This document shows positions 341 through 16,490 of a stretch of 64,000 nt of DNA, in pieces. The DNA lies in NCBI RefSeq assembly GCF_002920915.1, contig NZ_PQVF01000006.1:124001-188000 (forward strand), in the 5' to 3' direction. The stretch comes from Solitalea longa. Lineage in GTDB: Bacteria; Bacteroidota; Bacteroidia; Sphingobacteriales; Sphingobacteriaceae. Position 1 is the stretch's first letter, and each line of letters begins with the position of its first letter. A program made the position numbers and the translations under genes. The notes under the pieces are model-generated. The model worked only from the letters and a program-made list of their open reading frames with translations, made no database searches and was not told where the DNA came from.

Positions 341-1723
341 CTATGTTGCAAACTGTATTTCCGTCTTCAGAAGACGGAGCGCCGTTTCGGAATCGACCCT
401 GCAGAGCAGTCCCATTGATGCAAAAATGTACCTGGCATCTATCAGGTATTTCGGTTTCTTTGGTTTCATATATAATGCCTTATTCGGATTGAAGAGGGCA
501 CCTTCGAGAATCTTCACGGGGTTAATACTATTGATAATGGCTCCGCCTATACCAATTATATAAGGCACTTCGGTCAAGTCTTTTCCGGTGATAGAGAAAA
601 TTTCACCCATCGGAGTGTAAGTGCTTTCGAGAATTCCACAGTGCCTTTCAACTGCTAATTCAACGGCCTTACGCGCCAGTCCTTCTTCAATTTGAAGTTC
701 ATTATTTGTATAGGCTATGATGTCAGGGTTGGATAAACAAGTCTGAATCCATTGTTCGACCGCTTCTTCATTGATTCCCATTTCTTGCGAGAGTACATTA
801 ACGCCGGCTTCATCGAGTAGGGAATTCAGGCTATAGCGCATTCCGAGATCTCCTTCCACTGTACGCTTACTGTAAGGTTCAGGCAAGCCTTTCATGAGGA
901 TTGTATCTATGGAAGGTTTGCCATCGGTCATGGAATAAATGTCCGTGGTTGCGCCTCCGAGATCGACAGCCAATAAATTGTTTAAACCGGGAGTAGTAGA
1001 AGTGCCTTTGCTTAGGAGTTCGCAGGCGTTCATTACGGCCAGCGGGGTGGGTATGATTTCGATGGAGGATAATTGCTGCACTCCTGAGAGGCCTTTGGCA
1101 TCGATAATCTTCTTGATAAAGAGTTCGCGAATGCACTGTTTTGCGGGTTCGATGTTCAATTTATTGAAAACCGGCATCACATTTTGGGTAATGACATAAT
1201 CTTTACCCGATGGTTGAAAGATGGTCTCGAGTTCGGCCGAAGCACTTTTGTTTCCGGCCACGATGACCGAGAAGTTCCTTTGTATTTCGCACAGCTTTCT
1301 GGCATTAGCAAGGATCACCTCCTTATTTCCGCCGTCGGTGCCTCCGCAGAGCAAAACTAAATCGGGGTTGATGTTGTAAATCTCCGCTTGTTCTTCGGTG
1401 GATATTTCAAATGCATACGTCTTTACGACTTTTGCCCCCGCGCTTGACGCCGCCAACTTTGCTGCCTTAGAAGTTAGTTCGGGTACAAGACCCAATGCTA
1501 CCATCTTTAAACCGCCTCCGGCGCTGCTGCAGCAGAGCAGCTTGTCGTACGGGAACTTGCCAACCTTCATTTCCAGGTCGGCCAATGCGGCACGGAACCC
1601 ATCCATAATGTCAGTTTCGATCGTAGTAAATGCATTTGCCGTTCCCACGATTCGAGCTTCACTGCTGTCAATAGCCGTCAGCTTTGTATATGTACTACCG
1701 AAGTCGGCTGTTAAGAACTTCAT
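341..1723 (-). CDS. glmL: Glutamate mutase-associated reactivating ATPase GlmL (MutL family)
   Basis: This 460-aa protein has the actin/Hsp70-like ATPase fold of GlmL/MutL, the family thought to maintain or reactivate B12-dependent glutamate mutase. A phosphate-1 loop opens the protein (LTADFGSTYTKLTAID), a second phosphate motif is AVDLGGATTDIYS near residue 252, and an adenosine-type glycine motif (IGIGGAIIN) lies near the C-terminus. It sits between the sigma and epsilon subunit genes, as in clostridial glutamate mutase operons. One base separates it from the glmS stop codon, so translation is probably coupled. The protein carries no signal peptide and is cytoplasmic. Confidence 0.93.
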   Translation of the reverse strand: MKFLTADFGSTYTKLTAIDSSEARIVGTANAFTTIETDIMDGFRAALADLEMKVGKFPYDKLLCCSSAGGGLKMVALGLVPELTSKAAKLAASSAGAKVVKTYAFEISTEEQAEIYNINPDLVLLCGGTDGGNKEVILANARKLCEIQRNFSVIVAGNKSASAELETIFQPSGKDYVITQNVMPVFNKLNIEPAKQCIRELFIKKIIDAKGLSGVQQLSSIEIIPTPLAVMNACELLSKGTSTTPGLNNLLAVDLGGATTDIYSMTDGKPSIDTILMKGLPEPYSKRTVEGDLGMRYSLNSLLDEAGVNVLSQEMGINEEAVEQWIQTCLSNPDIIAYTNNELQIEEGLARKAVELAVERHCGILESTYTPMGEIFSITGKDLTEVPYIIGIGGAIINSINPVKILEGALFNPNKALYMKPKKPKYLIDARYIFASMGLLCRVDSETALRLLKTEIQFAT

Positions 1724-1724
1724 G

Positions 1725-2135
1725 TTAGTTTTCGGTAAAGGCTTTCAGATCGGCTATCGTTGTTTCCAGAGATGTTCCGGGAGGATATGCTTTAGTGAAT
1801 CCCATTTCCATGAAGCGTTTTTCTACTTCTGCAAAATCCTGTTTACCCACCACAAGGTTACCTCCAACCAAGAGAGGGATATTTTTCAGTCCCGCCTCCT
1901 CGCATTTCTGTCTCAGGCCATTACAATCTATCTCTCCGTGACCATAAAGGGAAGACACAACAATGGCATCTGCATTGGTTTCCAGAGCGGCATCAATGTA
2001 TTCTTCCTGTGACACCATTACCCCTAGATTTACAACTTTGAATCCTGCGTCTTCTAAAGCGAAGGCGATGATTTTGTTACCAACTGCATGTGCATCTGCG
2101 CCAATTACTCCAGTGATTATCGTTTTGGTTTCCAT
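1725..2135 (-). CDS. glmS: Glutamate mutase sigma subunit (B12-binding)
   Basis: The 136-aa product is the cobalamin-binding subunit of glutamate mutase. The base-off/His-on B12 motif is complete: D14-x-H16-x-x-G19, then a Ser-rich segment at 61-63 (SSLYGHGE) and the GG pair at 91-92 (LLVGGN). H16 is the lower axial ligand to cobalt in this family. The length matches known sigma subunits (about 137 aa). It is the first gene of the minus-strand glmS-glmL-glmE operon. I looked for a cobalamin riboswitch upstream and did not recognise one. Confidence 0.95.
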
Positions 2136-2672: not shown

Positions 2673-2717
2673 AAAAAAGCCTATATCTTCCGTCTTTCAA
2701 CTTCAAATATAGGCTTA
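2673..2717 (-). terminator. Rho-independent terminator left of the tRNA remnant
   Basis: On the minus strand AAGCCTATAT (2716-2707) pairs perfectly with ATATAGGCTT (2686-2677) around a 20-base loop and is followed by a run of T. Its stem is identical to that of the terminator downstream of the intact tRNA-Ala at 20080-20124, but the loop differs. It therefore looks like the original tRNA terminator, separated from its gene. Confidence 0.75.
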
Positions 2718-2926: not shown

Positions 2927-3877
2927 TTACTTCAGCGTTTTCTTCATTTGATCACCCAAAGCATCAACTAATTTACCTGAATTGTCAATAACTAATTGAT
3001 TAACAAAACTGTTTTTAGAACTCTCTTTGACCTTAATCGAAATATTATAAGCCCCTTGGCTATAAGAAGGCTCCGATGTATAGTTACCTACAATATGATT
3101 GCCAAAAGAACGGGGTACAATAAAGCTTTGACCTACAAGTTTTTGACCTTTTATTCTTTGATAATATTCAGCGTATCCATCTTTAGTTATATCAAGAGGT
3201 GCTTTACGCACAAACAAATAAAACTTACCTAACTCAACATTTTTAAATAATTGCCCCTCTGCGTTTACATATGAAGTATTAAACGTAATTTCAAAATCTA
3301 CATTCAACAGCTTATCACTATTGGCTGCCACTTTTGCTTTCGCATAATTGATCTTCAAATCTTTTAATCGCAAACGAAATACGGAATTATTGATGATCGA
3401 ATACGGATTTTCAATATCCAGTTCAAATTCAGCCACCATAGCAGTATCCTGTTTTCCGTTATTTTCAAACGTGCGTACCAATTTAAAGCTATTGAATTGC
3501 ATTCCAATAGGATCAAAAGGACCTGTAGTTGATAACTGATCATAGAAATACAAATCGGTTAAAGCATATCCATATTCTGCAGTGTATTTTTTCTTGTCAT
3601 TATCTATCATTTGTTTAACCGCATTGGTAGCAAGAGAAATAACACTACCTGCCATACCTGCAACAGGGAGCCCTCGACTAGCGCCGCCACCGCGACTGGC
3701 TAAATCAGGAACTGTTTGTTGATGAAGTAAAGCATAATCGATTACATCGGATTTTTCTTTGATCTTCGCAGAAAGGTCTTCATTTTGTTTAGCAGACCCA
3801 AGTTTTGATCCTATGCACCCAGTAAAAACAAATGCAAAAGCGCCAAAGAAAAGTAATAATTGTAAATTTTTATTCAT
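2927..3877 (-). CDS. Lipoprotein of unknown function, last gene of CHASE2-caspase operon
   Basis: I do not recognise a family for this protein. I place the start at the ATG ending at 3877 rather than upstream, because it gives a clean lipoprotein signal: MNKNLQLLLFFGAFAFVF followed by TGC, with the lipidated Cys at residue 21. The 316-aa product has a Gly-rich low-complexity stretch (around RGGGASRG) and then a beta-rich region, and it ends in a helical segment (LVDALGDQMKKTLK). With this start the gene overlaps the upstream gene by 8 bases (ATGAATAA), which indicates translational coupling. It is the last gene of a five-gene operon with a caspase and a CHASE2 protein, so a role in the same envelope-located module is likely but unproven. 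Confidence 0.72.
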   Translation of the reverse strand: MNKNLQLLLFFGAFAFVFTGCIGSKLGSAKQNEDLSAKIKEKSDVIDYALLHQQTVPDLASRGGGASRGLPVAGMAGSVISLATNAVKQMIDNDKKKYTAEYGYALTDLYFYDQLSTTGPFDPIGMQFNSFKLVRTFENNGKQDTAMVAEFELDIENPYSIINNSVFRLRLKDLKINYAKAKVAANSDKLLNVDFEITFNTSYVNAEGQLFKNVELGKFYLFVRKAPLDITKDGYAEYYQRIKGQKLVGQSFIVPRSFGNHIVGNYTSEPSYSQGAYNISIKVKESSKNSFVNQLVIDNSGKLVDALGDQMKKTLK

Positions 3878-4733
3878 AAAATTTTGCTTGTGTGTTTTTA
3901 TAGAGTTGGTTAGTTGGCTCCAACTCAAAAGCCTTTAAATATTTCTTTGCAGCATCCACAAGAAAATGGTTTTCTTCTAGAATATAGCCTTGCATATAGG
4001 CCGTTTCGGCGGCAGAAGTTGGAACAACAGTGCTTAATAATGCATTTACTGCATTTCTGTAATCTTTTTCATTCCAAATACGCAAATAGTTTCTTTGACA
4101 AGGAATATTATTTTCTGGAGCTAACTCCCAATAATACTCCCCGATATCCCAATTCTTTAACACATTTTCTATTCGTATTGAATTGCCACTAAGATTGTGC
4201 GTATATAATAAACGTCCATCAATCGCATCAGAATAAAAGCTTGTAACAAAAGAAGCATTAGATGGCTCCCACCGTACAAGTAGTTTATCGTTATAATAGT
4301 GTATTGTATCAATAGAAACCAGTGTTTGTAGCAAAGGGCATCCTCTGTTTACTGCCCCTACATTTTTCATGTAATGACGAGGATCTTTTTCTGGTGATCC
4401 ATGCGGATGTGTGAATTCAGCCCATACATACTTAAAATAAGACGACGTTAGAGATGATCCTTCGTTGCTGCAATCTGTTAACGATTTTAATGACTTTAGA
4501 TTTTTTTGAGTCAATTGAATAGCCTTAAAATTTTTACAAATTAACACCAGTCTTGAATCATTGCTCAATACAAGTTGATCTGAAGCCAATAATTTATCTC
4601 CTTTTTTTACTACTTCCGTTTTACCTCCTGTCTTTTTCAAGCATTTACCGGTCGTGTAATACACAACATAGTCTGGCGGTGTACCATATGCACGTATCGA
4701 TAAAAACGATATTAATACTAATAAATATTTCAT
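3870..4733 (-). CDS. Exported protein of unknown function in caspase operon (FecR-like N-terminus possible)
   Basis: The 287-aa product begins with a signal peptide (MKYLLVLISFLSIRAYG). The N-terminal 90 residues are beta-rich, with a segment resembling the exported FecR-like beta domains (VVKKGDKLLASDQLVLSNDSRLVLI). The last 45 residues look like a single TPR-type helical hairpin (AAKKYLKAFELEPTNQLYKN). Four bases separate it from the CHASE2 gene upstream, and its stop overlaps the start of the lipoprotein gene downstream, so it belongs to the same operon. It may be an adaptor between envelope sensor and protease. That role is a guess from context. Confidence 0.68.
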   Translation of the reverse strand: MKYLLVLISFLSIRAYGTPPDYVVYYTTGKCLKKTGGKTEVVKKGDKLLASDQLVLSNDSRLVLICKNFKAIQLTQKNLKSLKSLTDCSNEGSSLTSSYFKYVWAEFTHPHGSPEKDPRHYMKNVGAVNRGCPLLQTLVSIDTIHYYNDKLLVRWEPSNASFVTSFYSDAIDGRLLYTHNLSGNSIRIENVLKNWDIGEYYWELAPENNIPCQRNYLRIWNEKDYRNAVNALLSTVVPTSAAETAYMQGYILEENHFLVDAAKKYLKAFELEPTNQLYKNTQAKFYE

Positions 4734-4737
4734 ATGA

Positions 4738-5919
4738 TTAATGATGAGATGTTAAGGAAAACAAGGATTCATACCGATACTTTTTATATAACCACTTACA
4801 AAGAGCCTCATATAAATACAGTACATCAACAGCAACAACAATAGCTGTTAATGTGATCGTCATGTTAATTTGCATATTAGAACCGTAAAAAAGTCGTAGG
4901 CCCAGATAAACAAAAAATATAGCAGAAAGCAACTGCGCAACTTTTGCTGCAAGATGAAACCAAATATGCTTATCCAGGAAGTATTTTATAAAGAAGGCCA
5001 TATGTAACCAACACAAGACCAGAGCGATTACCCAGTTTAACCATTTTGGCGACTGCTTAATATAGCTACCTTCTTGTAGCATATTAATAATATTTGCATG
5101 TATAAAAACACCATTAAGGTCAGGGATGCTTTTACCGATAAAACGAGTGTTTAAAGGAGTAAAATGTTTATCCTGAACATCCTGATCGCTTTTTGAAACA
5201 TAACCAAGTAACACTATTTTATTTAATAAAACGGATGTGTCTACCTTATTTGTAAACAAGCTATGTCCATCAATAACTATATACTTATCAGCATTTCTGC
5301 TATAATTTATGGTCTCTAATTCTTTATTTCTATTGATGAATTGTTGAAATCGGGCTGTATCAACTATTTTTACAATAGTAGCAGCAAAGGGCAAATATTT
5401 ATTATCATGATCCTGCAAAACTGATTGAACCGAGCGATTTACGCCACCCTCTTCGCCCACAAAGTTTACAAAACCTTTGTTTTTAGCCTGTTCAAAAAAA
5501 TAACCATCATGAGATAAATGATGGTCCACTTCCTGCAAGTTATAAGCCATTACAATCTTCGGATCAGCTGCAAAAGCAGTCCTCAGCATACTATCTGCAA
5601 CCGAATCCTTCTTTTCATTAAATAAAACATCAACTCCTATTACTTTCGGGCTACAGGCGGAGACCTTCTTAATCATATTTGCGATAGCCAACCTATCAGC
5701 ATCTTCAATATTTACTACCACAATGGATGTATCAATCGGGATATCATTGTTTTTACCCAGTCGTGAATAAGCCATGTCGTTGTAATCAAAATCCTGCAAG
5801 GCAAGTTTCAAAGGGTCCAGAACATGCGTATTCAATGGGATGAATGATAAAAGACCCATGACCAGGAATACAGACAAAGTGGCAAAAATGGTATCTTTCT
5901 TAAAGAGATATTTGAACAT
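4738..5919 (-). CDS. CHASE2-domain membrane protein without fused output domain
   Basis: This 393-aa protein has one N-terminal membrane segment (about residues 11-29), a roughly 250-residue extracytoplasmic domain, and three C-terminal membrane segments (about 293-315, 323-343 and 351-372). That is the layout of CHASE2 sensors. The domain shows typical CHASE2 features: early DTSIVVVNIEDAD, then KVIGVDVLFNEK, and GVFIHANIINMLQEGSYI just before the first C-terminal membrane segment. CHASE2 usually feeds a kinase, cyclase or protease domain, but here only a short tail follows. The caspase gene lies directly upstream (11 bases away), so the output may be supplied in trans. CHASE2 ligands are generally unknown. 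Confidence 0.85.
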   Translation of the reverse strand: MFKYLFKKDTIFATLSVFLVMGLLSFIPLNTHVLDPLKLALQDFDYNDMAYSRLGKNNDIPIDTSIVVVNIEDADRLAIANMIKKVSACSPKVIGVDVLFNEKKDSVADSMLRTAFAADPKIVMAYNLQEVDHHLSHDGYFFEQAKNKGFVNFVGEEGGVNRSVQSVLQDHDNKYLPFAATIVKIVDTARFQQFINRNKELETINYSRNADKYIVIDGHSLFTNKVDTSVLLNKIVLLGYVSKSDQDVQDKHFTPLNTRFIGKSIPDLNGVFIHANIINMLQEGSYIKQSPKWLNWVIALVLCWLHMAFFIKYFLDKHIWFHLAAKVAQLLSAIFFVYLGLRLFYGSNMQINMTITLTAIVVAVDVLYLYEALCKWLYKKYRYESLFSLTSHH

Positions 5920-5930
5920 TACTAGTGTAT

Positions 5931-8174
5931 TTATTCTATTGTACGAAATGCTTTTTTAGTGATTGACCAATTAACAGGTGTGATTGTTACGCTTCGTGAT
6001 TTAGAACCAGTGGCAAGTATTGATTCCAAGGCACTCGGTGGACGACCGGTCTTACTACCTATATCTTCCCCTCTGGAAAGCACCCCCTCTTGTTGAAATA
6101 CACTAAGGTTATTAATTGCTTCTTCTGATGAGAGTAAAAAATAATTATCACTTCCGGCAGGAGGTGTAATCAAAATATCAGCAATGTGTGTTTGAACCTG
6201 CGGATTTCCATCACTATTGGTTATTGGAAAACGATTCTCAACATTCCCGCCACTTGGATCAGGGAACATTAAATTCATTGCACCTTTACTATCAATAGAG
6301 AAAACATAGATATACCTTTTCTTATAGTTCCAACTTCCAGCATCTTCTAAAGATAAGTACACAGAAAGTGTATCATTCACTTTCACCATATCAGATGTAA
6401 CCGGTTTACCTGAAGTATAATACAAGAAATCTAATTTAAAAGGAAATCTATTTGGACCTCCCGGACCTGTTAACATTAGCCAATCGCGCATTTTGGCAAT
6501 ACGAAATGCAAATTCTGATAGCTTATCGGCAACTTGCTCTCCACTCGTGGGGCTGTCTGTATAAGCAACAAAATCCGTTCGTTGGGGTAGACTCTCTGTT
6601 GTATCCTGTACAGTAACCTGACTTTTCACCAATGCATATTCAAGCTGATTATTTTCATTTAATCGACCTACTAAAGTATACTGTGAATCATTAGGATCAC
6701 TTACCACCTTAATATTATTGAATTCCTTAAATTGTTGTTGCAATTGGTTTTGTAATGTGGTTGTAGGTGGAAAATTTACAAATGCAGCAGTTGATTTACC
6801 TAGTGATGCCTGTAAAGCTGAGGCTGAAAACGATTTACCAATTTCCTGCTTTCCATTTTTGGCATCGGAATACACCCATTTATTATTATCATAAAAATAA
6901 ATTCTATCCAGATTTGTATTGACAATATCATTTTTCCATTTTCCCTTAATACTTTGACGAAATGATTGATATACTTTGGAATAACCTGTAAGTGTTTTAT
7001 CATCAATTGCTACTGAAGGAATATATACTTTAAGAGCAGGCGCTTTTGAAGAAGTCCAGTTGATTACTTCAAACAACGAACCCGGTTGTATTTTAGATGG
7101 AGATCCCGTTAAAACTCTTGCTAAACTTTTATTTGCACCACGCATCTGCATGATTTCTAACGTATCTTTTGAGCTCATAGCGGCCAGTTTTACACCTTCC
7201 GACAGGCCAAAAGCATACCCTCCTTGTAATTCTACTCCTTTAGCTTCAATTTTACTAACTCCAATAGCCAATTTATTTTTTATAGTTCCTTTCGGTAATC
7301 CAAACAAACTACCGGCCTTTCGTTGTTCACTTGCTGCTAATACCGGTTCTTGAGTCTTCCCATAGTACTTCATAATAGCCGTGATGCTGCTATAAATATT
7401 GGTTACAGATGCATCCGGAGTAAGTTGTTGTAAAGCTTTTAATAAGGCTATAGTAAATGCACCATGCGGTACATTATTTTCATCATACTGTTCTTTGGCA
7501 AATTCAAAATCCTGGGCCGCGGAGATCATTAGCGCTCCTCTCGACTCAGGTTTTTCCGGTGTTGACGCATCTTTTGCATCCGCATTACTTTCTTCAAGAT
7601 TACGTGTCTTAGGAGGATCATTTAAATAACCTCTTCCCGCTGATCCACTATGACAACTATCAAAGATGATGGTTAGCAAAACGCCCTTATCCAATAGTTT
7701 ATTGAACATTGCAGCCAATTCTTTATCCCTTATATCGGCAGCTCCTTTGTAAGAATCAGCCGGCACCATTGATTCATCTTTTTTATCCGTTTCCAGTGAT
7801 AAAGAATTATATACCTGACTTCCATGCCCCGCGTAATAAATAAAAACTACATCGTTCTTACTTAATTTAGGATCTGCAATCAGTTTATTAATTTCGGCAA
7901 TAATACGACTGCGGGATGCTTCCTGATTAAATAAGGTAGTGATACTTTCGGGTGCAAAAGAATATCGGGCAATCATCAAATCCTTTACGGAAGATGCATC
8001 ATTTACGCATCCATCTAAGTCAGTCCAACTTCCGCGTGAAGCATTCTCAGCTACAACACCTTGCGGCGGATTATATTTGTCAATGCCGATAATTAATGCT
8101 TTTTGAGTTTGGGCAATTAGCACCCCCGGCACTAAACTTAGTAACAGGATCGGAATCAATAAACGTATTTTCAT
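5931..8174 (-). CDS. Exported caspase-family (metacaspase-like) protease with C-terminal DUF4384-like region
   Basis: A Sec signal peptide (MKIRLLIPILLLSLVPGVLIAQ) precedes a peptidase C14 domain at residues 24-275. The catalytic dyad is intact: H117 in YYAGHG and C174 in FDSCHSG. The Asp two residues before the Cys is typical of metacaspases that cleave after Arg or Lys (family knowledge). A middle region of about 300 residues is not recognised. Residues 590-700 resemble DUF4384 (VNDTLSVYLSLEDAGSWNYKKRYIYVFSID), a module often found with bacterial caspases. The 747-aa protein should work outside the cytoplasm. It lies between a 93-aa gene (16 bases away) and the CHASE2 gene (11 bases away). 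Confidence 0.9.
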   Translation of the reverse strand: MKIRLLIPILLLSLVPGVLIAQTQKALIIGIDKYNPPQGVVAENASRGSWTDLDGCVNDASSVKDLMIARYSFAPESITTLFNQEASRSRIIAEINKLIADPKLSKNDVVFIYYAGHGSQVYNSLSLETDKKDESMVPADSYKGAADIRDKELAAMFNKLLDKGVLLTIIFDSCHSGSAGRGYLNDPPKTRNLEESNADAKDASTPEKPESRGALMISAAQDFEFAKEQYDENNVPHGAFTIALLKALQQLTPDASVTNIYSSITAIMKYYGKTQEPVLAASEQRKAGSLFGLPKGTIKNKLAIGVSKIEAKGVELQGGYAFGLSEGVKLAAMSSKDTLEIMQMRGANKSLARVLTGSPSKIQPGSLFEVINWTSSKAPALKVYIPSVAIDDKTLTGYSKVYQSFRQSIKGKWKNDIVNTNLDRIYFYDNNKWVYSDAKNGKQEIGKSFSASALQASLGKSTAAFVNFPPTTTLQNQLQQQFKEFNNIKVVSDPNDSQYTLVGRLNENNQLEYALVKSQVTVQDTTESLPQRTDFVAYTDSPTSGEQVADKLSEFAFRIAKMRDWLMLTGPGGPNRFPFKLDFLYYTSGKPVTSDMVKVNDTLSVYLSLEDAGSWNYKKRYIYVFSIDSKGAMNLMFPDPSGGNVENRFPITNSDGNPQVQTHIADILITPPAGSDNYFLLSSEEAINNLSVFQQEGVLSRGEDIGSKTGRPPSALESILATGSKSRSVTITPVNWSITKKAFRTIE

Positions 8175-8190
8175 ATTTGTAGTAATTTGA

Positions 8191-8472
8191 TTAATACCAG
8201 AGGTTTTGCTTCAATAAATCAATGTTGGCAGAGATCAGGATAAGCTTCGTTTTATAGTTTGATTCTAGACCAGGCTTACCGCCTTTTTTAAACAAAACGA
8301 GATCAACAACTCCTGTAAGTCCGCTTAAACGGGCAGCACTTCCAATTTCCGCCAGTTCATTAATCCGCCAAAGTGATTGATTAGTTTGAGTTTTGTTTTT
8401 TTGATAGGTAAACATAACAGCTAACGTTTCCAGGAATAAACATACCATTGTCCTTTTTGCAATAAGACTCAT
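8191..8472 (-). CDS. Small protein of unknown function, first gene of caspase operon
   Basis: The 93-aa product matches no family I know. It starts 16 bases upstream of the caspase gene on the same strand and directly follows a candidate promoter, so it would be the leader gene of the operon. The N-terminus (MSLIAKRTMVCLFLETLAVMFTY) is hydrophobic and could be a membrane or signal segment. The rest is mixed, with a Gly/Lys patch (FKKGGKPG). It may be a truncated relic of a longer gene. Coding status is plausible from the tight spacing only. Confidence 0.5.
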   Translation of the reverse strand: MSLIAKRTMVCLFLETLAVMFTYQKNKTQTNQSLWRINELAEIGSAARLSGLTGVVDLVLFKKGGKPGLESNYKTKLILISANIDLLKQNLWY

Positions 8473-8614: not shown

Positions 8615-9064
8615 ATGAAAAAACTTACATTAAGCATCTGTGCGTTATTAGGCACGTTTTTGTTATTAACACTATCCACTTCAGGCGCCCTAGCCCAAAG
8701 CAAACAAGCAAAGAAAAAGCAAACAATTGAAACAAAGGCAAGTAATGTCAAATCGGATGCTACAGAAGCATTAAAAAGGCCGGAAAACGATAAAAATAAT
8801 AAAGAAGGTAAGGGTCGTGGGGATGTTTATGGAGATGATTACAGTGATATCGTTGTTGATAATTACACTAATTACAATATCGACATCTATGTAGATGGAA
8901 AATATAGAGGAACTTTAGGGCCATGGGAGAAAAAAGTGACCTGGGCAGTACCTGGTAAAACCCGTATGTATGCAAAAGCTGAATTCAGTGATGGGTCTTA
9001 CTCGACCTGGGGACCAAATGTTGCAGAAACAGGTTATGAATACAAGTGGAATTTGAGATACTAA
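8615..9064 (+). CDS. Small exported protein of unknown function
   Basis: The 149-aa product has a signal peptide (MKKLTLSICALLGTFLLLTLSTSGALAQ), then a Lys/Glu-rich low-complexity linker (about residues 30-72). A compact beta-rich domain of about 70 residues follows, with IDIYVDGKYRGTLGPWEKKVTWAVPGK and an aromatic end (YEYKWNLRY). The domain recalls small PEGA-like beta modules, but I do not claim membership. It is the only plus-strand gene between the two caspase groups, has its own terminator at 9093-9124, and shares its intergenic region with the caspase operon. Co-regulation with that operon is possible. Confidence 0.7.
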   Translation: MKKLTLSICALLGTFLLLTLSTSGALAQSKQAKKKQTIETKASNVKSDATEALKRPENDKNNKEGKGRGDVYGDDYSDIVVDNYTNYNIDIYVDGKYRGTLGPWEKKVTWAVPGKTRMYAKAEFSDGSYSTWGPNVAETGYEYKWNLRY

Positions 9065-9177: not shown

Positions 9178-12100
9178 TTACCAGACCTCCCAATCAACTG
9201 CAATGACCTCGTTCCTGCTGGTTGGCTTTTGTAATCCATTGGTTAACTCTTCCACTCTTGCACCAACAATACGTTTCAATTCACTAACTTTTAACTGTGG
9301 GTATTTATTCATGGCTTCGATTAGACTGTAGGTAAATACTCCGTTTTTCAGATCACCACGCTCTAGAGCAAATTGGGTACCTGCCGCTGCTGAAATAACC
9401 GTAGCTCCAGTGCTCTTACCTACATTTACAAAAAGCTCCTGCATTAACTCAAAGCTGTTTTTAATACCTACACGTTTTTTGGAACTGTCAGTAAACAAAA
9501 TAGATCCCTTGGTTCCGATACTATTGTCCGCTACCATTTTTTGCATCTGAGTAAGTTCCTCTTTATCTACTTCACCACTATGACAGGCATCAATCAGCAT
9601 TAGTTTTTTTCGGGCAGGTATACTGTCCAGCAGGCTTTCCAGTTCATCATAAGGGAGGCCTTTTTGTTCGGGATTCTCAAAATTAACATTGTAGGTGGAA
9701 AGGTAATAGTCATAGTCCTTGCTCAACAATCCGTGCCCGGAATAAGCAATAATTACTTTGTCGTTCACTGTAGTTTGTTGCAGCTTTTGTTTTAGTGCTT
9801 TAACATTGCTAACGGTTACATTGCTATTGAACAGTGTATCAATCGTAATCGCTTCACCATATTTTTGCTTGAGTTTCACCGACAGATCGCGAATATCTTT
9901 GGCGCTATATCGAAGATTGTATTTGCTGTCGGCAAATTGATCAATGCCGATGCCGATAAAGCGTGTGATTTCTTTTTCCTTGACGGCAGGGCTATAGTTT
10001 ACAAACAATGGCATGCGATAACTTTCAATACCGTTTATATTGGTAATGGATGTTTCAATTCTGTTTTCGCCTTGTGATAATGTAATAGTGATCGTTGTGT
10101 CGATATTGTTGCTTTTGCTTTTTTTAATATTAAAGCCTCTCAAACCAAACACCGGCACTTCATTCACCCACACATTAAAGCGATCCAATAAACAAGTGCT
10201 GTCTGCTCCTTTGAAGCGAAGTTTAAGTTTTTCATTCTTCTGTTCGTACTCAATATTATCCCTGCTTACAAAATCTGCCTCGGGCACGCTATAACCATCA
10301 CGAAAGGCCGTTGTATCGATTCTCAATTTCTTAATTCTTTTTTCGTAAGCTTTCCGATACGACTTTATTAAGACTGTATCTGTATTACCAATAGCTTCGA
10401 GTACTTTATCGGGGCGGTTGTATTTTACATCGAGCTGTTCAAAGCTAATAATCCTTGAATCACTGGTTACATAATGCAATTGCCTGGAGGCATTCCGAGA
10501 CCCCTTGTAATAACCTGAAGGGATAGTAGTGATATATTCATTGAATTTGAAAGGAACGGTTTGCGAAACAGGGTAAAGATTTTGCCGATCATATTTCCAA
10601 TACTTAATGGTCCCATCTTCTGAAGATGTTATAAGCCTGGAACTGTCAATAAAACAAGGTACTACTCCCGAAGCATGTGCCTTGGCCGTAAATAATAAAC
10701 GGCCTGATTCAAGGTCCCACATCAAAAGCCCTCCACGCCCCGATCCTGCAGCGAGCAGTGTCCCGCTTTTATCAATTGAAAAACGATGATAACCCCAGCG
10801 GTTGTCAATTGCAAATGTCCTGTAGAGTTTTCCCGTATTGTAATCATATAATTCCACAGAAATATCTGTCAACACCTCAATGTATTTTCCGTTTTGTGAT
10901 TGCCTTGCATCAAATTCCCAACCAGCAGATTTTATTTTACGGAGAGGCCGCAAGGTTATATCACAAATTACAGTCGTGCTGTCAGATTGGTTACAGTAAA
11001 AAATAAATTTACCATCGTTGCTGAAGCGGCCGGAAACGATCCGTTCATTGCTTTTAATCGAGTTTATCGTTTTGTTGCTCATTAGGTCAAATACTTCAAT
11101 AACAGTATTTGCTTTATCGTTACGGGTTATTATTAAATCACTGGAAACAATAACGGCCCGTTGCAATTGATCGTTAACATCCGCGGTTAAAATGGGGTAA
11201 TTTCGGACAATCTTTTTCATCTCCTTTCTTGTGGCGGGATCCCATAATTTAAGAGTAGAATCAATGGATGTAGACAGAATCAAATGGCTGTGGGAAGAGT
11301 AGGACAAGTCGCTCAGATAGTCAGGATGTGCATCATAGCTTGCTGTCACTTCTGCTTTGCCGATATCCATGAACTTTATATACCCATTGCCGTCCCCCAA
11401 AAAAATAAGTTCCTTGCTGAAAGCAGTCGCATCAATACCTTCAGTTTCCCCCCTAAATAACTGGGAAAGCATACTGGTGTCACCCTGAATCTTATATTCC
11501 CGTATAACGTTGTCTTGAAGGACGAAATAAAACTTTTTTAATTGATTATTTACTATAATGGGTGCTTCCACATTTTTGAGATTCCTGCTTTCAGCGAAAT
11601 AGTCAATTTGTTGTACAACATTGCCTTCTTTTGTATCAAAGTATACTGCCCAGTAATCATCGCTCATAACAAAATGTCGCCCTGAATCGACAAAACTTAC
11701 ATTGTCGAACCCATATTTAAACTTATTAAACGAATAAATCAATCCATCGTTTATGTTAAAAAGATGCAGGGAACTATCTTCCATTCCGACGAGCAGGTTC
11801 CCGTCAAACTTCGAAAAACTGAATTTAGAAGGTTTACTGCCAATACTGTCGATCATGCATGTAGTTCTTATTTTCAGGCTGTCGTAATCTAGCTGGCGGA
11901 TATAAGCATGCTGCCCATCAAACTGGGTTACATATAAACAGTCTCGGAATTCCGAAAAATAACCCGGTACCTGCACAGGAAAATTCAGTTGCCGGATCAA
12001 GTGCAATGTTGAATCAAGAACGTAATAAGATGATTGGCCCCGGCTTTTTTTCTCCACCAATATATTGCGGTCATGATTGATGTAGCTTGCAGAAGCAATG

Positions 12101-12564
12101 GTGTCTTTTGAAAAATAAGTATGTAGGAGTTGCCCCTTTTCCGGGTTCCAGATTTGCAGGCTGGTATCTTTGTTGGTCAGCAGGAAATCTCCGTTGGCAG
12201 AATAGGATACTCCGTTAAAAACTTGCTTCATTGCAAGGTCAAAATTTCCGGTACAAACGTTGAAAATAAAACTTGAATCTCTTCCGGAAATAAACAAATG
12301 CTTTCCGGAAGGGCTGAGCTTTACAAATAAAGATCCGTCAACAATATTAATGTCATGCAGCAGTTTACCTGTTCGTGTATCCCAAATCTTTGTGTGAATG
12401 TCGTTGAATGATTCGGAGACGAGGTATTTCCCATCCTCACTCACAAGTATATCTGTAATACCCTGTGGGTGTCCGATTGGCAGCATCAGTTTCGGTTGCT
12501 GCGCAAGAGATGACATTGACAATATTGATAAAATAAAAATTAAACACGTTTTTACGAAATACAT
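9178..12564 (-). CDS. Exported WD40-caspase fusion protein, copy 1
   Basis: The 1128-aa protein starts with a signal peptide (MYFVKTCLIFILSILSMSSLAQ). Residues 30-690 form a degenerate WD40-type propeller region with recurring blade ends such as KIWDTRTGKLL, QIWNPEKGQLL, KLWDPATRKEM and LMWDLESGRLL. A linker of about 150 residues (from 702) leads to a peptidase C14 domain from 855. The dyad is H944 (AYSGHG) and C994 (IDACHSG), so it should be active. From residue 702 to the end it is closely similar to the neighbouring 1291-aa protein, while the propellers differ widely. It lies 50 bases downstream of that gene and is probably cotranscribed. The WD40 part presumably binds a ligand or partner outside the cytoplasm. 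Confidence 0.9.
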   Translation of the reverse strand: MYFVKTCLIFILSILSMSSLAQQPKLMLPIGHPQGITDILVSEDGKYLVSESFNDIHTKIWDTRTGKLLHDINIVDGSLFVKLSPSGKHLFISGRDSSFIFNVCTGNFDLAMKQVFNGVSYSANGDFLLTNKDTSLQIWNPEKGQLLHTYFSKDTIASASYINHDRNILVEKKSRGQSSYYVLDSTLHLIRQLNFPVQVPGYFSEFRDCLYVTQFDGQHAYIRQLDYDSLKIRTTCMIDSIGSKPSKFSFSKFDGNLLVGMEDSSLHLFNINDGLIYSFNKFKYGFDNVSFVDSGRHFVMSDDYWAVYFDTKEGNVVQQIDYFAESRNLKNVEAPIIVNNQLKKFYFVLQDNVIREYKIQGDTSMLSQLFRGETEGIDATAFSKELIFLGDGNGYIKFMDIGKAEVTASYDAHPDYLSDLSYSSHSHLILSTSIDSTLKLWDPATRKEMKKIVRNYPILTADVNDQLQRAVIVSSDLIITRNDKANTVIEVFDLMSNKTINSIKSNERIVSGRFSNDGKFIFYCNQSDSTTVICDITLRPLRKIKSAGWEFDARQSQNGKYIEVLTDISVELYDYNTGKLYRTFAIDNRWGYHRFSIDKSGTLLAAGSGRGGLLMWDLESGRLLFTAKAHASGVVPCFIDSSRLITSSEDGTIKYWKYDRQNLYPVSQTVPFKFNEYITTIPSGYYKGSRNASRQLHYVTSDSRIISFEQLDVKYNRPDKVLEAIGNTDTVLIKSYRKAYEKRIKKLRIDTTAFRDGYSVPEADFVSRDNIEYEQKNEKLKLRFKGADSTCLLDRFNVWVNEVPVFGLRGFNIKKSKSNNIDTTITITLSQGENRIETSITNINGIESYRMPLFVNYSPAVKEKEITRFIGIGIDQFADSKYNLRYSAKDIRDLSVKLKQKYGEAITIDTLFNSNVTVSNVKALKQKLQQTTVNDKVIIAYSGHGLLSKDYDYYLSTYNVNFENPEQKGLPYDELESLLDSIPARKKLMLIDACHSGEVDKEELTQMQKMVADNSIGTKGSILFTDSSKKRVGIKNSFELMQELFVNVGKSTGATVISAAAGTQFALERGDLKNGVFTYSLIEAMNKYPQLKVSELKRIVGARVEELTNGLQKPTSRNEVIAVDWEVW

Positions 12565-12614
12565 ACAGCGAATTTCTAAAAGCTACCTATAAATTATTCG
12601 TGCGGGGAAAACCT

Positions 12615-15600
12615 TTACCACACATTCCAATCCACCGCGATCGTTTCATTTCTTGATGTTGGCTTTTGCAAACCCTTTGTCAACTCTTCCACGCGTTTAC
12701 CAACAATCGTTTTCAGCTCGCCTATTTTCATGGAGGGATGTGTTTTCATTGCTTCCAGAATGGAATAAGTGAACACCCCATTCTTCAGGTCATTTCTTTC
12801 CAATGCAAACTGGGTTCCAGCTGCAGCCGAAATAATAGTGGCACCGGTGCTTTTGCCTACATTCACAAAGAGACTTTGCATCAGCTCAAAACTGTTTTTC
12901 AATCCGAGTTGGCCTTCTTTTTTATAGGCTATCGGCTTCATGCCTTTGATCAATGTATCTGAAGTACCATTGAGCCTGACCAGGTCATCCTTGTCTACTT
13001 CGCCGCTGTGGCAGGCATCGATCAACATCAGCTTTTTTCGCGCAGGAATGCCATCGAGCAAGTTTTCCAGTTCATCATAAGGCAGGCCGTTTTGTTCTGG
13101 ATTCTCAAAATTGACATTGTAGGTGGAAAGGTAATAGTCGTAGTCCTTGCTCAGCATGCCGTGACCCGAATAAGCAATAATTACTTTGTCGTTCACTGTA
13201 GTTTGTTGAAGCTTTTGTTTCAGTGCTTTTACATTGCTGACGGTTACATTGTTGTTGAACAGTGTATCAATCGTAATTGCTTCACCATATTTTTCCTTGA
13301 GTTTCACCGACAGATCGCGAATGTCTTTGGCGCTATATCGAAGATTGTATTTGCTGTCGGCAAATTGATCAATGCCGATGCCGATAAAGCGTGTGGTTTC
13401 TTTTTCCTTGACGGCAGGGCTGTAGTTTACAAACAATGGCATGCGGTAGCTTTCCGTTCCGTTCACATTGGTGATGGAAGTCTCAATTCTGTTTTCTCCC
13501 TGCGATAGTTTTATTGTAATAGTCGTATCAAGACTGTTGGCGTTTCTTTTGCGGATGCTGATGCCTCTTTGTCCGAAGATAGGCGTTTCGTTGACCCAGA
13601 TATTGAAGCGATCCAGTTTGTAAGTGCTGTCCCTTCCTCTTATTTGGAGCGAGAGTTTCCCGGACATCTGTTCGAATTCAATGCCGTCACGATTGGTAAA
13701 GTCGGCTTCGGGCACACTGTAGCCGGAACGGAATGCGGTTGTATCAATACTCAGTTTCTTTATTCTTTTTTCATAAGCTTTACGATATGATCTTATCAAT
13801 GCAGTATCGGTACTGCCGATGGCTTCCAAAACTTTATCCGGGCGGTTGTATTTAACATCTAGTTGTTCGAAAGTAATGACTTTTAATTCTTTTGTGACGT
13901 AGTGAAGTAGCTTTGCTGCATCAGGCGAACATTGATAATACCCACCCTGTATCTGGTTAAAAAAACCAGTTTCTCCTACCTGAAAAAAAGTATTGATTAG
14001 TTTGCCATTAACACTATTCCACACCTTAATTGTATTGTCTGATGCAGTGGTAAGGATACTGTTTTTATTTGAACCAAATTTTACACAAGGTATATATGAG
14101 TTTTCATGAGCCCTTATACTTTTGATCTGGATACCACTTTCAGTATCCCAAATTGTAACATTCCCTTTAATATCCGCAATAGCGACCTGTTTTAAATCGG
14201 GGCTGTAATCAAAGTCAGTAGTATTTTCTTCTGCACTCATTGAATGAATCAAATTTCCTGTATTAATTTCCCACAATCTAACAGACCTATCTCCGCCACG
14301 GCTTATCAATATTCTACTGTCAGAACTGAATTTAACTTGCAATGTCCTACGTTCATGACCACTCAGTACGCGAAGTAGCTGCCCATTTTCAGCACTCCAA
14401 ATCTTTATATCATCATCAAACATGGCCGTCGTTACTATATATTTCCAATCCGGAGTTACACTTAAAGACCATAGTTCATTTTTACTTACGATTAAATTAG
14501 CAATCAGCTTTGCACGTTCGATATCCCATAATTTTACTACGTTGTCATTATATGAACCAGTAAGCAATTTCTTATTGTCAGGGCTAATCATAAAATCTCT
14601 AATTGTACCCTTATGCCCTGTTATGTTCATAATAATCCTTCCCGATCCTATCTCCAAAATCTTGGCTGAATGATCGCTACTTGTTGAAATCATCCAATTG
14701 TTGTTTTCGACAAGTTTAATGTTGTTAATGGGTTTTTCGTGCAGTTTTTTTGCTAATATCAACCTGCCAGATTCAGTTTCCCTAATCATAGCCATATTAT
14801 CGTTATCAACTGATATTATATACTTATTATCCGCTGTCATAAGGAGGTCATTAATAGTTTCCTTATTGACGGACTTAAACTCTTTTATCAAAGTCCCGTT
14901 ATTGATATTCCACAGGCGGATAGTATTGTCGATATCACTGGTAACCAGCTTTTGCTCATCTGCGGAAAACGCCCACCTTATGATATAGGATGAAAGTTTT
15001 TTGTCAAGTACAGACCTAAGTATGCCAGATTTAATATCCCAAATTTCAATGGAATGATCCGACTTCTGTTTAAATGCACTGTTGAAGGACGTGCTATAAT
15101 GTAGAGCTTTTATATTGTTCTGATTATACAATTCCTTAGCGACTAAAACTCCTCTTAGTGGATCCCAAATTCTTGTTTCGAGGATATTAGCTGTTTTCGT
15201 AACGATTTTATTGGCAACCGTAACAACTTCAATTTTTCGAACAGGAATTGTAAATCCTTTCAAAGTAGCCACTAAAGCTTTCTTTTCGATATCCCATATC
15301 TGTGCAGTATTGTCGGATGAAGAAAGGACAATCTTTTTATGATCCGGACTATATTCAATATCAGTAAAGCCATTGCGTGAACCTTGCACAGAAAAAATAA
15401 GAGTTCCAGTTTGTGCGTCCCAGATGTTGGCCATCCCATACCAATCTGTCGTAATCAATTTAGTATCATCAAAGTTAAATATGGCATCACTAATTGCGCC
15501 ATAATGTCCTTTTAAGGCTCTTATCAATTCGCCACTTTCCGATTTCCAAATTTTTACGGTTCCATTTTCGGATCCGGTTACAATCATCTTTGCATTATTG

Positions 15601-16490
15601 GAAAAAATCACAACACGTGCTGTTTCATTTTGTTTTGTGAGGTCATTAATCAGTTTACCGGTTTGGACGTCCCATAATTTTAATTGACAATCATATTCAT
15701 TACTTCTTGTTATTAGCCGTTGGCCAAAGGGGGCAAAAATTCCCTTCCTTATCTGATCAGGCATAGTAAATGTATGTAACAACTTCCCGCTGTTTCCATC
15801 CCAGATTTTTGCAGTTTTGTCATTTGAAGCAGTTACAACTTTTGAATTATCGTTGCTAAATTCCGCATCATTTATCATTTCACTGTGATCTGCAAGCTCT
15901 GATAGAACTGCTCCGGTTTCAGCATCCCATACTATTGCTTTATCCGCTCCAGCCGTTACTATTTTCCTTCCATCAGAACTGAATCTGGCTGAAAATAAAA
16001 TACTTTGATGGCCGGTAAATTTCTTAATCAGATCGCCAGTTGCTGCATCCCAAGTACAGGCTGTTTTGTCCATGGAGGCAGTAACAATTAAATTCCCATT
16101 AGGACTAAATTCGGCATACTCAATAGGGGCGGTGTGTGTCAATTCTTTTATGACCTCCCCTGTTTGTGCATTCCATAAAGTGATAAAATTGCTTCCCCCT
16201 GCAACTTCAGATCGACCGAGGATCCTGTTACCTGGTTTATTGTAAACAACTGACTCAACGTGTTTACTTCTGCTTTTGAGCTCTGTAATACACATTCCTG
16301 TTTCTATATCCCATATAACTATTTTATCTTCTGATATTGTAGTGGCCTTTTTACCATCTGGACTTATTTTCGATTTCAGAACAGCGCTGGTATGTCCTAT
16401 TGGTAGTACCAATTTGGGATCCTGCGCCCAGGCTTGAAAACAGAAAAATGAAATGATTAAAATGACAACAACGGTTTTTTTTGTGCACAT
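12615..16490 (-). CDS. Exported WD40-caspase fusion protein, copy 2 (19 WD-type motifs)
   Basis: The 1291-aa protein has a signal peptide (ending FCFQAWAQ) and then about 830 residues of WD40 repeats. I count 19 blade-end motifs of the type xIWDxxTGxLI; two are degenerate (MIRETESGRLI and KILEIGSGRII). This is enough for two or three propellers. A shared linker starts near residue 868 and the caspase domain near 1021. The catalytic dyad is H1110 (AYSGHG) and C1160 (IDACHSG). The C-terminal 424 residues are nearly the same as in the downstream gene, but an insertion-like segment after the active-site Cys differs. As first gene of a two-gene operon it may form a family of sensor variants on one effector. 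Confidence 0.9.
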   Translation of the reverse strand: MCTKKTVVVILIISFFCFQAWAQDPKLVLPIGHTSAVLKSKISPDGKKATTISEDKIVIWDIETGMCITELKSRSKHVESVVYNKPGNRILGRSEVAGGSNFITLWNAQTGEVIKELTHTAPIEYAEFSPNGNLIVTASMDKTACTWDAATGDLIKKFTGHQSILFSARFSSDGRKIVTAGADKAIVWDAETGAVLSELADHSEMINDAEFSNDNSKVVTASNDKTAKIWDGNSGKLLHTFTMPDQIRKGIFAPFGQRLITRSNEYDCQLKLWDVQTGKLINDLTKQNETARVVIFSNNAKMIVTGSENGTVKIWKSESGELIRALKGHYGAISDAIFNFDDTKLITTDWYGMANIWDAQTGTLIFSVQGSRNGFTDIEYSPDHKKIVLSSSDNTAQIWDIEKKALVATLKGFTIPVRKIEVVTVANKIVTKTANILETRIWDPLRGVLVAKELYNQNNIKALHYSTSFNSAFKQKSDHSIEIWDIKSGILRSVLDKKLSSYIIRWAFSADEQKLVTSDIDNTIRLWNINNGTLIKEFKSVNKETINDLLMTADNKYIISVDNDNMAMIRETESGRLILAKKLHEKPINNIKLVENNNWMISTSSDHSAKILEIGSGRIIMNITGHKGTIRDFMISPDNKKLLTGSYNDNVVKLWDIERAKLIANLIVSKNELWSLSVTPDWKYIVTTAMFDDDIKIWSAENGQLLRVLSGHERRTLQVKFSSDSRILISRGGDRSVRLWEINTGNLIHSMSAEENTTDFDYSPDLKQVAIADIKGNVTIWDTESGIQIKSIRAHENSYIPCVKFGSNKNSILTTASDNTIKVWNSVNGKLINTFFQVGETGFFNQIQGGYYQCSPDAAKLLHYVTKELKVITFEQLDVKYNRPDKVLEAIGSTDTALIRSYRKAYEKRIKKLSIDTTAFRSGYSVPEADFTNRDGIEFEQMSGKLSLQIRGRDSTYKLDRFNIWVNETPIFGQRGISIRKRNANSLDTTITIKLSQGENRIETSITNVNGTESYRMPLFVNYSPAVKEKETTRFIGIGIDQFADSKYNLRYSAKDIRDLSVKLKEKYGEAITIDTLFNNNVTVSNVKALKQKLQQTTVNDKVIIAYSGHGMLSKDYDYYLSTYNVNFENPEQNGLPYDELENLLDGIPARKKLMLIDACHSGEVDKDDLVRLNGTSDTLIKGMKPIAYKKEGQLGLKNSFELMQSLFVNVGKSTGATIISAAAGTQFALERNDLKNGVFTYSILEAMKTHPSMKIGELKTIVGKRVEELTKGLQKPTSRNETIAVDWNVW

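Follow-up and report, generated by a model that had tools for sequence, protein, structure and literature searches.

What is an exported caspase doing beside a CHASE2 membrane protein that carries no enzyme of its own? The question arises in Solitalea longa, where a stretch of 64,000 nucleotides (the window; contig NZ_PQVF01000006.1 of assembly GCF_002920915.1, positions 124,001–188,000) holds five minus-strand open reading frames (ORFs), P0001 to P0005. The tight packing described in an initial annotation is borne out: from P0001 to P0005, the first three spacers measure 16, 11 and 4 bases, and the last two genes overlap by 8. The common view has CHASE2 sensing for a cytoplasmic enzyme in the same polypeptide, and places most bacterial caspases in the cytoplasm as proteases of death or conflict. 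The annotation had taken all five genes for one envelope signalling module. Gene content and order in relatives led us to reject a single unit of five linked families: the proteases are exchangeable or absent and the lipoprotein is rare. By this comparison, the conserved core is the pair of CHASE2 protein and P0004, not the caspase. Our result is less than the five-gene claim, in that two genes form the core and the others are exchangeable, and more, in that the arrangement recurs in several families of the phylum and connects to MtxA.

The CHASE2 protein, P0003 (4738–5919, minus strand; 393 amino acids, aa), is a predicted inner-membrane protein without a fused output. Its Pfam CHASE2 match (E 5.8e-24) lies between transmembrane segments, which hydrophobicity places at residues 11–29, 297–315, 319–337 and 351–369, a 1+3 plan, and the protein ends about 25 residues past the last of them. 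CHASE2 and one sub-cut-off match are all that its 393 residues yield, with no fused kinase, cyclase or GGDEF output, as the annotation had stated. For comparison we used 80 named loci, which are the top 80 when 331 relatives are ordered by their similarity to P0003. They span Pedobacter, Chitinophagaceae (over-represented), Lacibacter, Ignavibacteria, Kapaibacteria, Winogradskyella, Lewinella and others, and at least L068, L069, L090, L103, L117, L120 and L124 also fall within our order and phylum samples. The 80 loci contain 83 P0003-homologous ORFs of 378–544 aa, 63 of which have the 1+3 plan by hydrophobicity. ORF picking was simple, and the CHASE2 genes of L053 and L059 and the partner gene of L056 were seen in whole-genome searches instead.

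The CHASE2 gene and its P0004-type neighbour are kept together across this range. A partner gene adjoins CHASE2, on either side, in 71 of the 80 named loci; the five-family set is not kept together, and the order of four genes (caspase, CHASE2, MtxA-like protein, lipoprotein) is retained outside the window in L070 and L077. Among the nine non-adjacent loci, the sequences of L096 and L137 stop directly behind CHASE2, the partner in L097 is one gene further away, and the profile found no partner in L084, L098, L106, L107, L125 or L139. P0003 homologues occur in 7 of the 300 order-sample genomes, own included, and in none of three other listed genomes of the same genus. At all seven own-family loci a P0004-like gene lies next to CHASE2; four of the seven have a caspase (the window, L008, L011 and L013), directly before CHASE2 in two (the window and L011). 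The CHASE2 profile matches 27 of the 395 phylum-sample genomes. Strong partner-profile places number 29 (E up to 2.5e-55) in 26 genomes, all among those 27, and 25 of these places are no further than 1.5 kb from CHASE2. The partner profile matches more weakly or partially in 30 further genomes (56/395 at E 1e-5). Weaker P0004-type matches (E 1.7e-26 to 5.7e-12) stand in five genomes without a CHASE2 match (G532, G535, G651, G382 and G430; family f30). Pedobacter planticolens and Neolewinella aquimaris are culturable carriers of relatives; the P. planticolens locus (L068) keeps the pair, with a caspase gene at a distance of 3 kb.

P0004 (3870–4733, minus strand; 287 aa) is a predicted CHASE2 partner of MtxA type, because fold, profile and gene neighbourhood agree. 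The annotation had left the protein without a function, and it indeed matches no family above cut-off, but an AlphaFold2 model built from 44 sequences (mean predicted local distance difference test score, pLDDT, 85.4) proves MtxA-like. Model residues 133–287 align with the C-terminal domain of MtxA (4z29) at Z 11.1 over 139 residues (root-mean-square deviation, rmsd, 4.9), with a low identity of 12% in the structural alignment. TPR and Ig structures trail at Z 7.4 and less, leaving aside 5ix9, which matches another part of the model: residues 18–92 resemble this "cell surface anchoring domain" at Z 12.0 over 74 residues (rmsd 1.9). We take 5ix9 to be an adhesin retention module; the NCBIfam LapA retention model matches the same region weakly (E 0.019, 15.2 bits against a cut-off of 50). 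The predicted protein would thus comprise a 5ix9-like beta domain, an Ig-like domain and TPR-like helices. Searched against the PDB, the P0004 family profile (A5) finds MtxA at E 2.9e-4, aligning profile positions 28–301 with chain positions 26–288; for the better-scoring TPR proteins the best stretches begin at profile position 217 or later. At E 0.05, FecR (PF04773) is not among the families matched by 26 P0004-family members, one of which weakly matches DUF928 (E 0.01). In magnetotactic bacteria, the gene that comes after mtxA is conserved and encodes both an adenylate cyclase and a CHASE2 domain (PMC4439547).

An exported protease is genetically linked to this sensor pair. P0002 (5931–8174, minus strand; 747 aa) is, as annotated, a caspase with a signal-peptide-like start, a Peptidase_C14 match at E 7.7e-26 and the His-Cys dyad H117/C174. 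A DUF4384-like C-terminal region is also present, though the match is weak (17.9 bits, Pfam cut-off 27); a trypsin-linked caspase in L170 exceeds that cut-off at 29.4 bits. Homologues of P0002 in the same gene order share 59% (L070) and 33% (L077) identity. We compared the placement of caspases with a uniform expectation from rounded genome sizes, using 32 of 33 CHASE2 genomes (the weak G394 left out) and 35 of 38 CHASE2 places (that of G394 and two weak G440 places left out). The 67 C14 matches include 14 at 5 kb or less from CHASE2, against 0.16 expected; these 14 are spread over 11 of the 32 genomes and 8 of 14 families, and without the own genome 12 of 64 remain, in 10 of 31 genomes.

Most linked caspases look exported and keep the dyad. 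Retention of the dyad was a check set beforehand. A profile alignment covered 52 caspases: the window's three, one of them 6.7 kb away from CHASE2, and 49 that the 80 loci hold at 5 kb or less. His and Cys are both kept in 51, the exception being a 151-aa fragment. A fixed-motif count (43 His, 30 Cys and 27 both among 49) proved too strict for Cys and was replaced by this alignment. Signal-peptide-like starts are found in 45 of the 49 linked caspases and 75 of 78 MtxA-like ORFs, compared with 252 of 674 other ORFs. The annotated envelope sensor coupled to a protease is supported as a genetic linkage on the basis of caspase enrichment near CHASE2, dyad retention and two fusions.

The two fusions, each a single case, give the most direct indication that the caspase, CHASE2 and the partner may act together. 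One, in L046, unites CHASE2 and a complete P0004-type protein in a single chain, and residues 408–426 between the two form a strong hydrophobic segment; if this protein has the usual third C-terminal segment, both fused parts would lie on the periplasmic side. In L051 (on the same contig as L120, Candidatus Kapaibacterium), one chain combines a P0004-type N-terminal part, covering profile positions 6–149 of 305, with a caspase and an outer-membrane barrel. This protein keeps the caspase dyad and has a signal-peptide-like start, a sign that the caspase may act outside the cytoplasm.

Proteases beside CHASE2 differ by lineage. By C14 or CHAT profile, 44 of the 80 loci have a caspase-fold gene no more than 5 kb from CHASE2, and 7 have a papain gene at such a distance. 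The caspase gene stands directly before CHASE2 in the window, L011, L070, L077, L109 and L114. Elsewhere the layouts include a divergent TPR-caspase (L071, scanned, with the same layout in further Chitinophagaceae loci), two upstream caspases in the Lewinella-type loci L099, L117 and L127 (scanned as L054), a downstream WD40-caspase in Winogradskyella-type genomes (scanned in L092), an upstream TPR-CHAT gene in L048 (on the same contig as L103, scanned), and the order CHASE2, partner, papain, small protein, caspase in the Ignavibacteria loci L090 and L091. DUF4384 scores of the linked papains of L045 and L146 (24.4 and 26.1 bits) fall just under the cut-off of 27. A papain gene and, after it, a gene for a small protein (about 165 aa) stand beside CHASE2 in L045 (10182–13791), L090, L091 and L146 (6469–8410), with a caspase next in L045, L090 and L091; the small protein of L045 has no Pfam match. 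In L109 (4488–6509), the caspase directly before CHASE2 is fused to CsgG-like and Glucodextran_B domains.

Comparison suggests another identity for the first gene of the operon, annotated as a small leader protein: it is most probably what remains, at the C-terminal end, of a gene for an exported trypsin-type protease. In the other examples found, the same domain lies in frames of 331–532 codons. P0001 (8191–8472, minus strand; 93 aa) has no catalytic trypsin domain and matches no Pfam family; its last 62 residues share 52% identity with the C-terminal end of P0006 in L013, a 497-aa protein with a Trypsin_2 domain. P0006 is encoded directly before CHASE2, and P0001 in the window stands before the caspase. 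The P0001 C-terminal domain occurs in 2 of 300 order-sample genomes (a frame of 511 codons in G207) and in 15 of 375 class-sample genomes, own included; frames in the other 14 class genomes run to 331–532 codons, against 99 in the window. We rejected a conserved leader because neither sample yielded a small stand-alone homologue, the other 15 examples all sitting in those long frames. A short out-of-frame resemblance upstream of P0001 in a three-frame view was too weak for use.

The trypsin-type gene belongs to a set that recurs without CHASE2. We examined ten of the 14 class-sample loci with the P0001 domain, 10–17 kb each, and found no CHASE2 profile match within those stretches. In all ten, the domain ends a trypsin-type gene with a GNSGGP motif (split over two frames in L166). 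A caspase gene adjoins it in seven, and a homologue of N0, a small exported protein encoded divergently from the operon (8615–9064, plus strand; 149 aa), lies beside it in five, once with a 73-aa ORF in between. L163 has N0, trypsin, a caspase with a DUF4384-like region and a P0005-type lipoprotein in a row; its lipoprotein is 30% identical to P0005 over 321 aa and its caspase 27% identical to P0002 over 359 aa. N0, P0001, P0002 and P0005 thus correspond to one exported-protease set that occurs without CHASE2 as well. We propose that the window unites the sensor pair with this set, its trypsin reduced to a remnant. N0, trypsin-type protease and caspase stand together with no CHASE2 nearby in L163 (6574–11639) and also in L162, L164, L165 and L168; among these five loci the lipoprotein is present in L163.

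The remaining members of the set match no described family. P0005 (2927–3877, minus strand; 316 aa) is a predicted lipoprotein with Cys21 behind a hydrophobic start; as annotated, its function is not indicated by any family above cut-off, and an AlphaFold2 model from two sequences is unusable (pLDDT 33). Homologues occur in L013 (52%), L070, L077 and L163, and a P0005-type lipoprotein is found in 2 of the 80 CHASE2 loci. N0, which the annotation had overlooked, is matched by its profile at all seven loci of the own bacterial family (the window and L008–L013). Some loci hold two copies of N0, and the family matches no Pfam family above cut-off.

From the computed genes, domains, adjacency, enrichment, dyad retention, two fusions and P0004 fold, we put forward a model in which the CHASE2 protein and its MtxA-like partner control exported proteases in the periplasm, and the operon unites both modules. 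We regard its chances as evenly balanced. One module would be the output-less inner-membrane CHASE2 protein with exported P0004, presumed to attach to the CHASE2 domain on the periplasmic side; the other would be N0, the trypsin-type protease (here lost to truncation), the caspase with its DUF4384-like tail and the lipoprotein. The Ig and TPR surfaces of the MtxA-like protein would keep the caspase in place, with CHASE2 as the platform. The complex would shift, and the periplasmic protease turn on or off, when CHASE2 senses a change in a ligand or in the envelope state, or when an outer-membrane partner senses one. With the output on the sensor's side of the membrane, a cytoplasmic enzyme would not be needed. 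We infer binding, direction of control, substrate and signal here, and the compartment would follow from the signal-peptide-like starts. A broader form of the model would make this a wholly extracytoplasmic signalling route, in which a periplasmic CHASE2/MtxA-like switch has a caspase output (elsewhere CHAT, papain or trypsin) and is sometimes tied to a barrel, and in which MtxA-like proteins are general CHASE2 partners across phyla, serving either cytoplasmic-enzyme or periplasmic-protease outputs. This broader form we offer tentatively, judging it somewhat short of even.

Several observations weigh against control of proteases by the pair. In 33 of the 80 loci, no caspase-fold or papain gene is present within 5 kb, and five of six same-family CHASE2 relatives lack an adjacent DUF4384-caspase; the pair must therefore also work without a caspase. 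Where proteases are present, their placement and orientation differ from lineage to lineage. In the L046 fusion, the last of the three C-terminal membrane segments is weak, scoring 1.07 where the threshold is 1.5, so that the P0004-type part of this protein may lie on either side of the membrane. All transmembrane and signal-peptide assignments are hydrophobicity heuristics. The partner profile was trained on CHASE2-adjacent genes, which makes the positive counts partly circular, though not the near-absence of matches elsewhere. The protease-free loci, and the variation in protease type, position and strand, would suit shared regulation only, with pair and proteases answering the same envelope stress without contact and the pair signalling otherwise. 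We think this unlikely, though a serious contender: the P0004-type N-terminal part joined to caspase and barrel in L120 and the CHASE2–P0004-type protein of L046 both speak against it.

Two other explanations are less probable. Exported caspases might harm the bacterium's own or a neighbour's envelope once the pair detects an attack, as a conflict or self-killing system. All three C14 matches in the genome (E up to 1e-5) fall within this one locus, occurrence is patchy (those 7 of 300 order genomes), and caspases paired with a membrane component have been described as conflict systems (EACC1, PMC7159879). Against this, in PADLOC P0001–P0005 match only the generic caspase model, through P0002; P0002 scores 46.8 bits against a cut-off of 140 for the EACC1-associated caspase type (NF047832) and looks exported; and P0003 has no match among phage records. 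We therefore hold a conflict role to be improbable. A mobile origin of the locus was likewise rejected, as P0003 lacks a phage match and has one plasmid match (Bernardetia, 27.5% identity), where a hypothetical gene follows the CHASE2 gene. Slightly more doubtful still is a non-signalling scaffold for the cell wall or outer membrane with the proteases as maintenance enzymes. A CHASE2 protein without output domain and the OmpA-family genes of L048 and L049 would fit such a scaffold; elsewhere, however, CHASE2 is a receptor domain, and partners of MtxA, FecR and NsrA type accompany CHASE2 signalling enzymes.

Periplasmic control by the pair would extend known systems. CHASE2, MtxA and fused caspase-CHASE2 proteins are known already (PMC3501461, PMC2853523). 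P0004 shares the Ig-TPR fold and a profile match with MtxA, and both adjoin CHASE2; in the MtxA system (PMC4439547) CHASE2 is joined to adenylate cyclase, whereas here it is output-less with exported-protease neighbours. The Burkholderia BiofilmReg operon encodes a LysM-FecR protein, a CHASE2 histidine kinase and a response regulator (PMC5192318). It resembles our locus in that the gene for an exported partner adjoins one for a CHASE2 protein of the 1+3 transmembrane plan. It differs in its fused kinase output and in a partner with a FecR domain, a family not among the P0004-family matches at E 0.05. In Sinorhizobium, the outer-membrane barrel NsrA is needed for signalling through the CHASE2 cyclase CyaK (PMC7529298, PMC13001267); this line from barrel to inner-membrane CHASE2 recalls L120, where barrel, P0004-type N-terminal domain and caspase are fused, but the output there is cytoplasmic cyclic AMP.

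Caspases have been tied to CHASE2 or to membrane components in other forms. A Trichodesmium metacaspase-CHASE2 fusion (PMC3501461, PMC2853523) likewise links a caspase to CHASE2, but as one protein with a predicted cytoplasmic caspase; here there are two proteins and the caspase has an export signal. EACC1-caspase and EACC2-caspase-CHASE2 systems (PMC7159879, PMC8195603) also tie a membrane component to a separate or fused caspase, whereas P0002 falls below the EACC1-type cut-off and looks exported, and the partner proteins differ. A lineage-specific cluster of Nostoc punctiforme with two WD40 genes, a hypothetical gene, CHASE2 and DUF928 (PMC5587647) shares the company of WD40 genes and CHASE2, as well as DUF928 through the one weakly matching P0004 relative, but no caspase link is drawn in the portion of that report available. 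Within the searched literature, which leaves most subscription journals outside, and as far as the available parts of those papers go, we did not find the exported, unfused caspase-CHASE2 form described. Output-less CHASE2, an MtxA-like protein and exported caspases in several Bacteroidota, Ignavibacteria and Kapaibacteria genomes suggest a periplasmic use of CHASE2 and caspases, and they would give a possible role to MtxA, a protein with a solved C-terminal structure.

The genes around the operon add to the picture of the locus. The annotation had not remarked on the clustering of the three C14 matches, which belong to P0002 and two tandem minus-strand WD40-caspases (9178–16490). The nearer (9178–12564; 1128 aa) matches Peptidase_C14 at E 3.9e-17. 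For the farther (12615–16490; 1291 aa), we inspected 25 of 53 matched families, WD40 among them; its C14 match is G000:C33:136645-137379. Both have signal-peptide-like starts and stay under the NF047832 cut-off of 140 (71.2 and 62.6 bits), and in PADLOC they match the generic caspase model and, weakly or through repeats, the AbiEii, HEAT-ARM_XIII and PDC-S02 models. Beyond P0005, a possible operon terminator lies at 2677–2716 (minus strand), a perfect 10-base inverted repeat with 20 bases between its arms, followed by a T run; a simple terminator scan with a loop limit of 8 does not list it. Two further genes at 341–2135 (minus strand) resemble, by their translations, a B12-dependent mutase pair (MutL-like and B12-binding).

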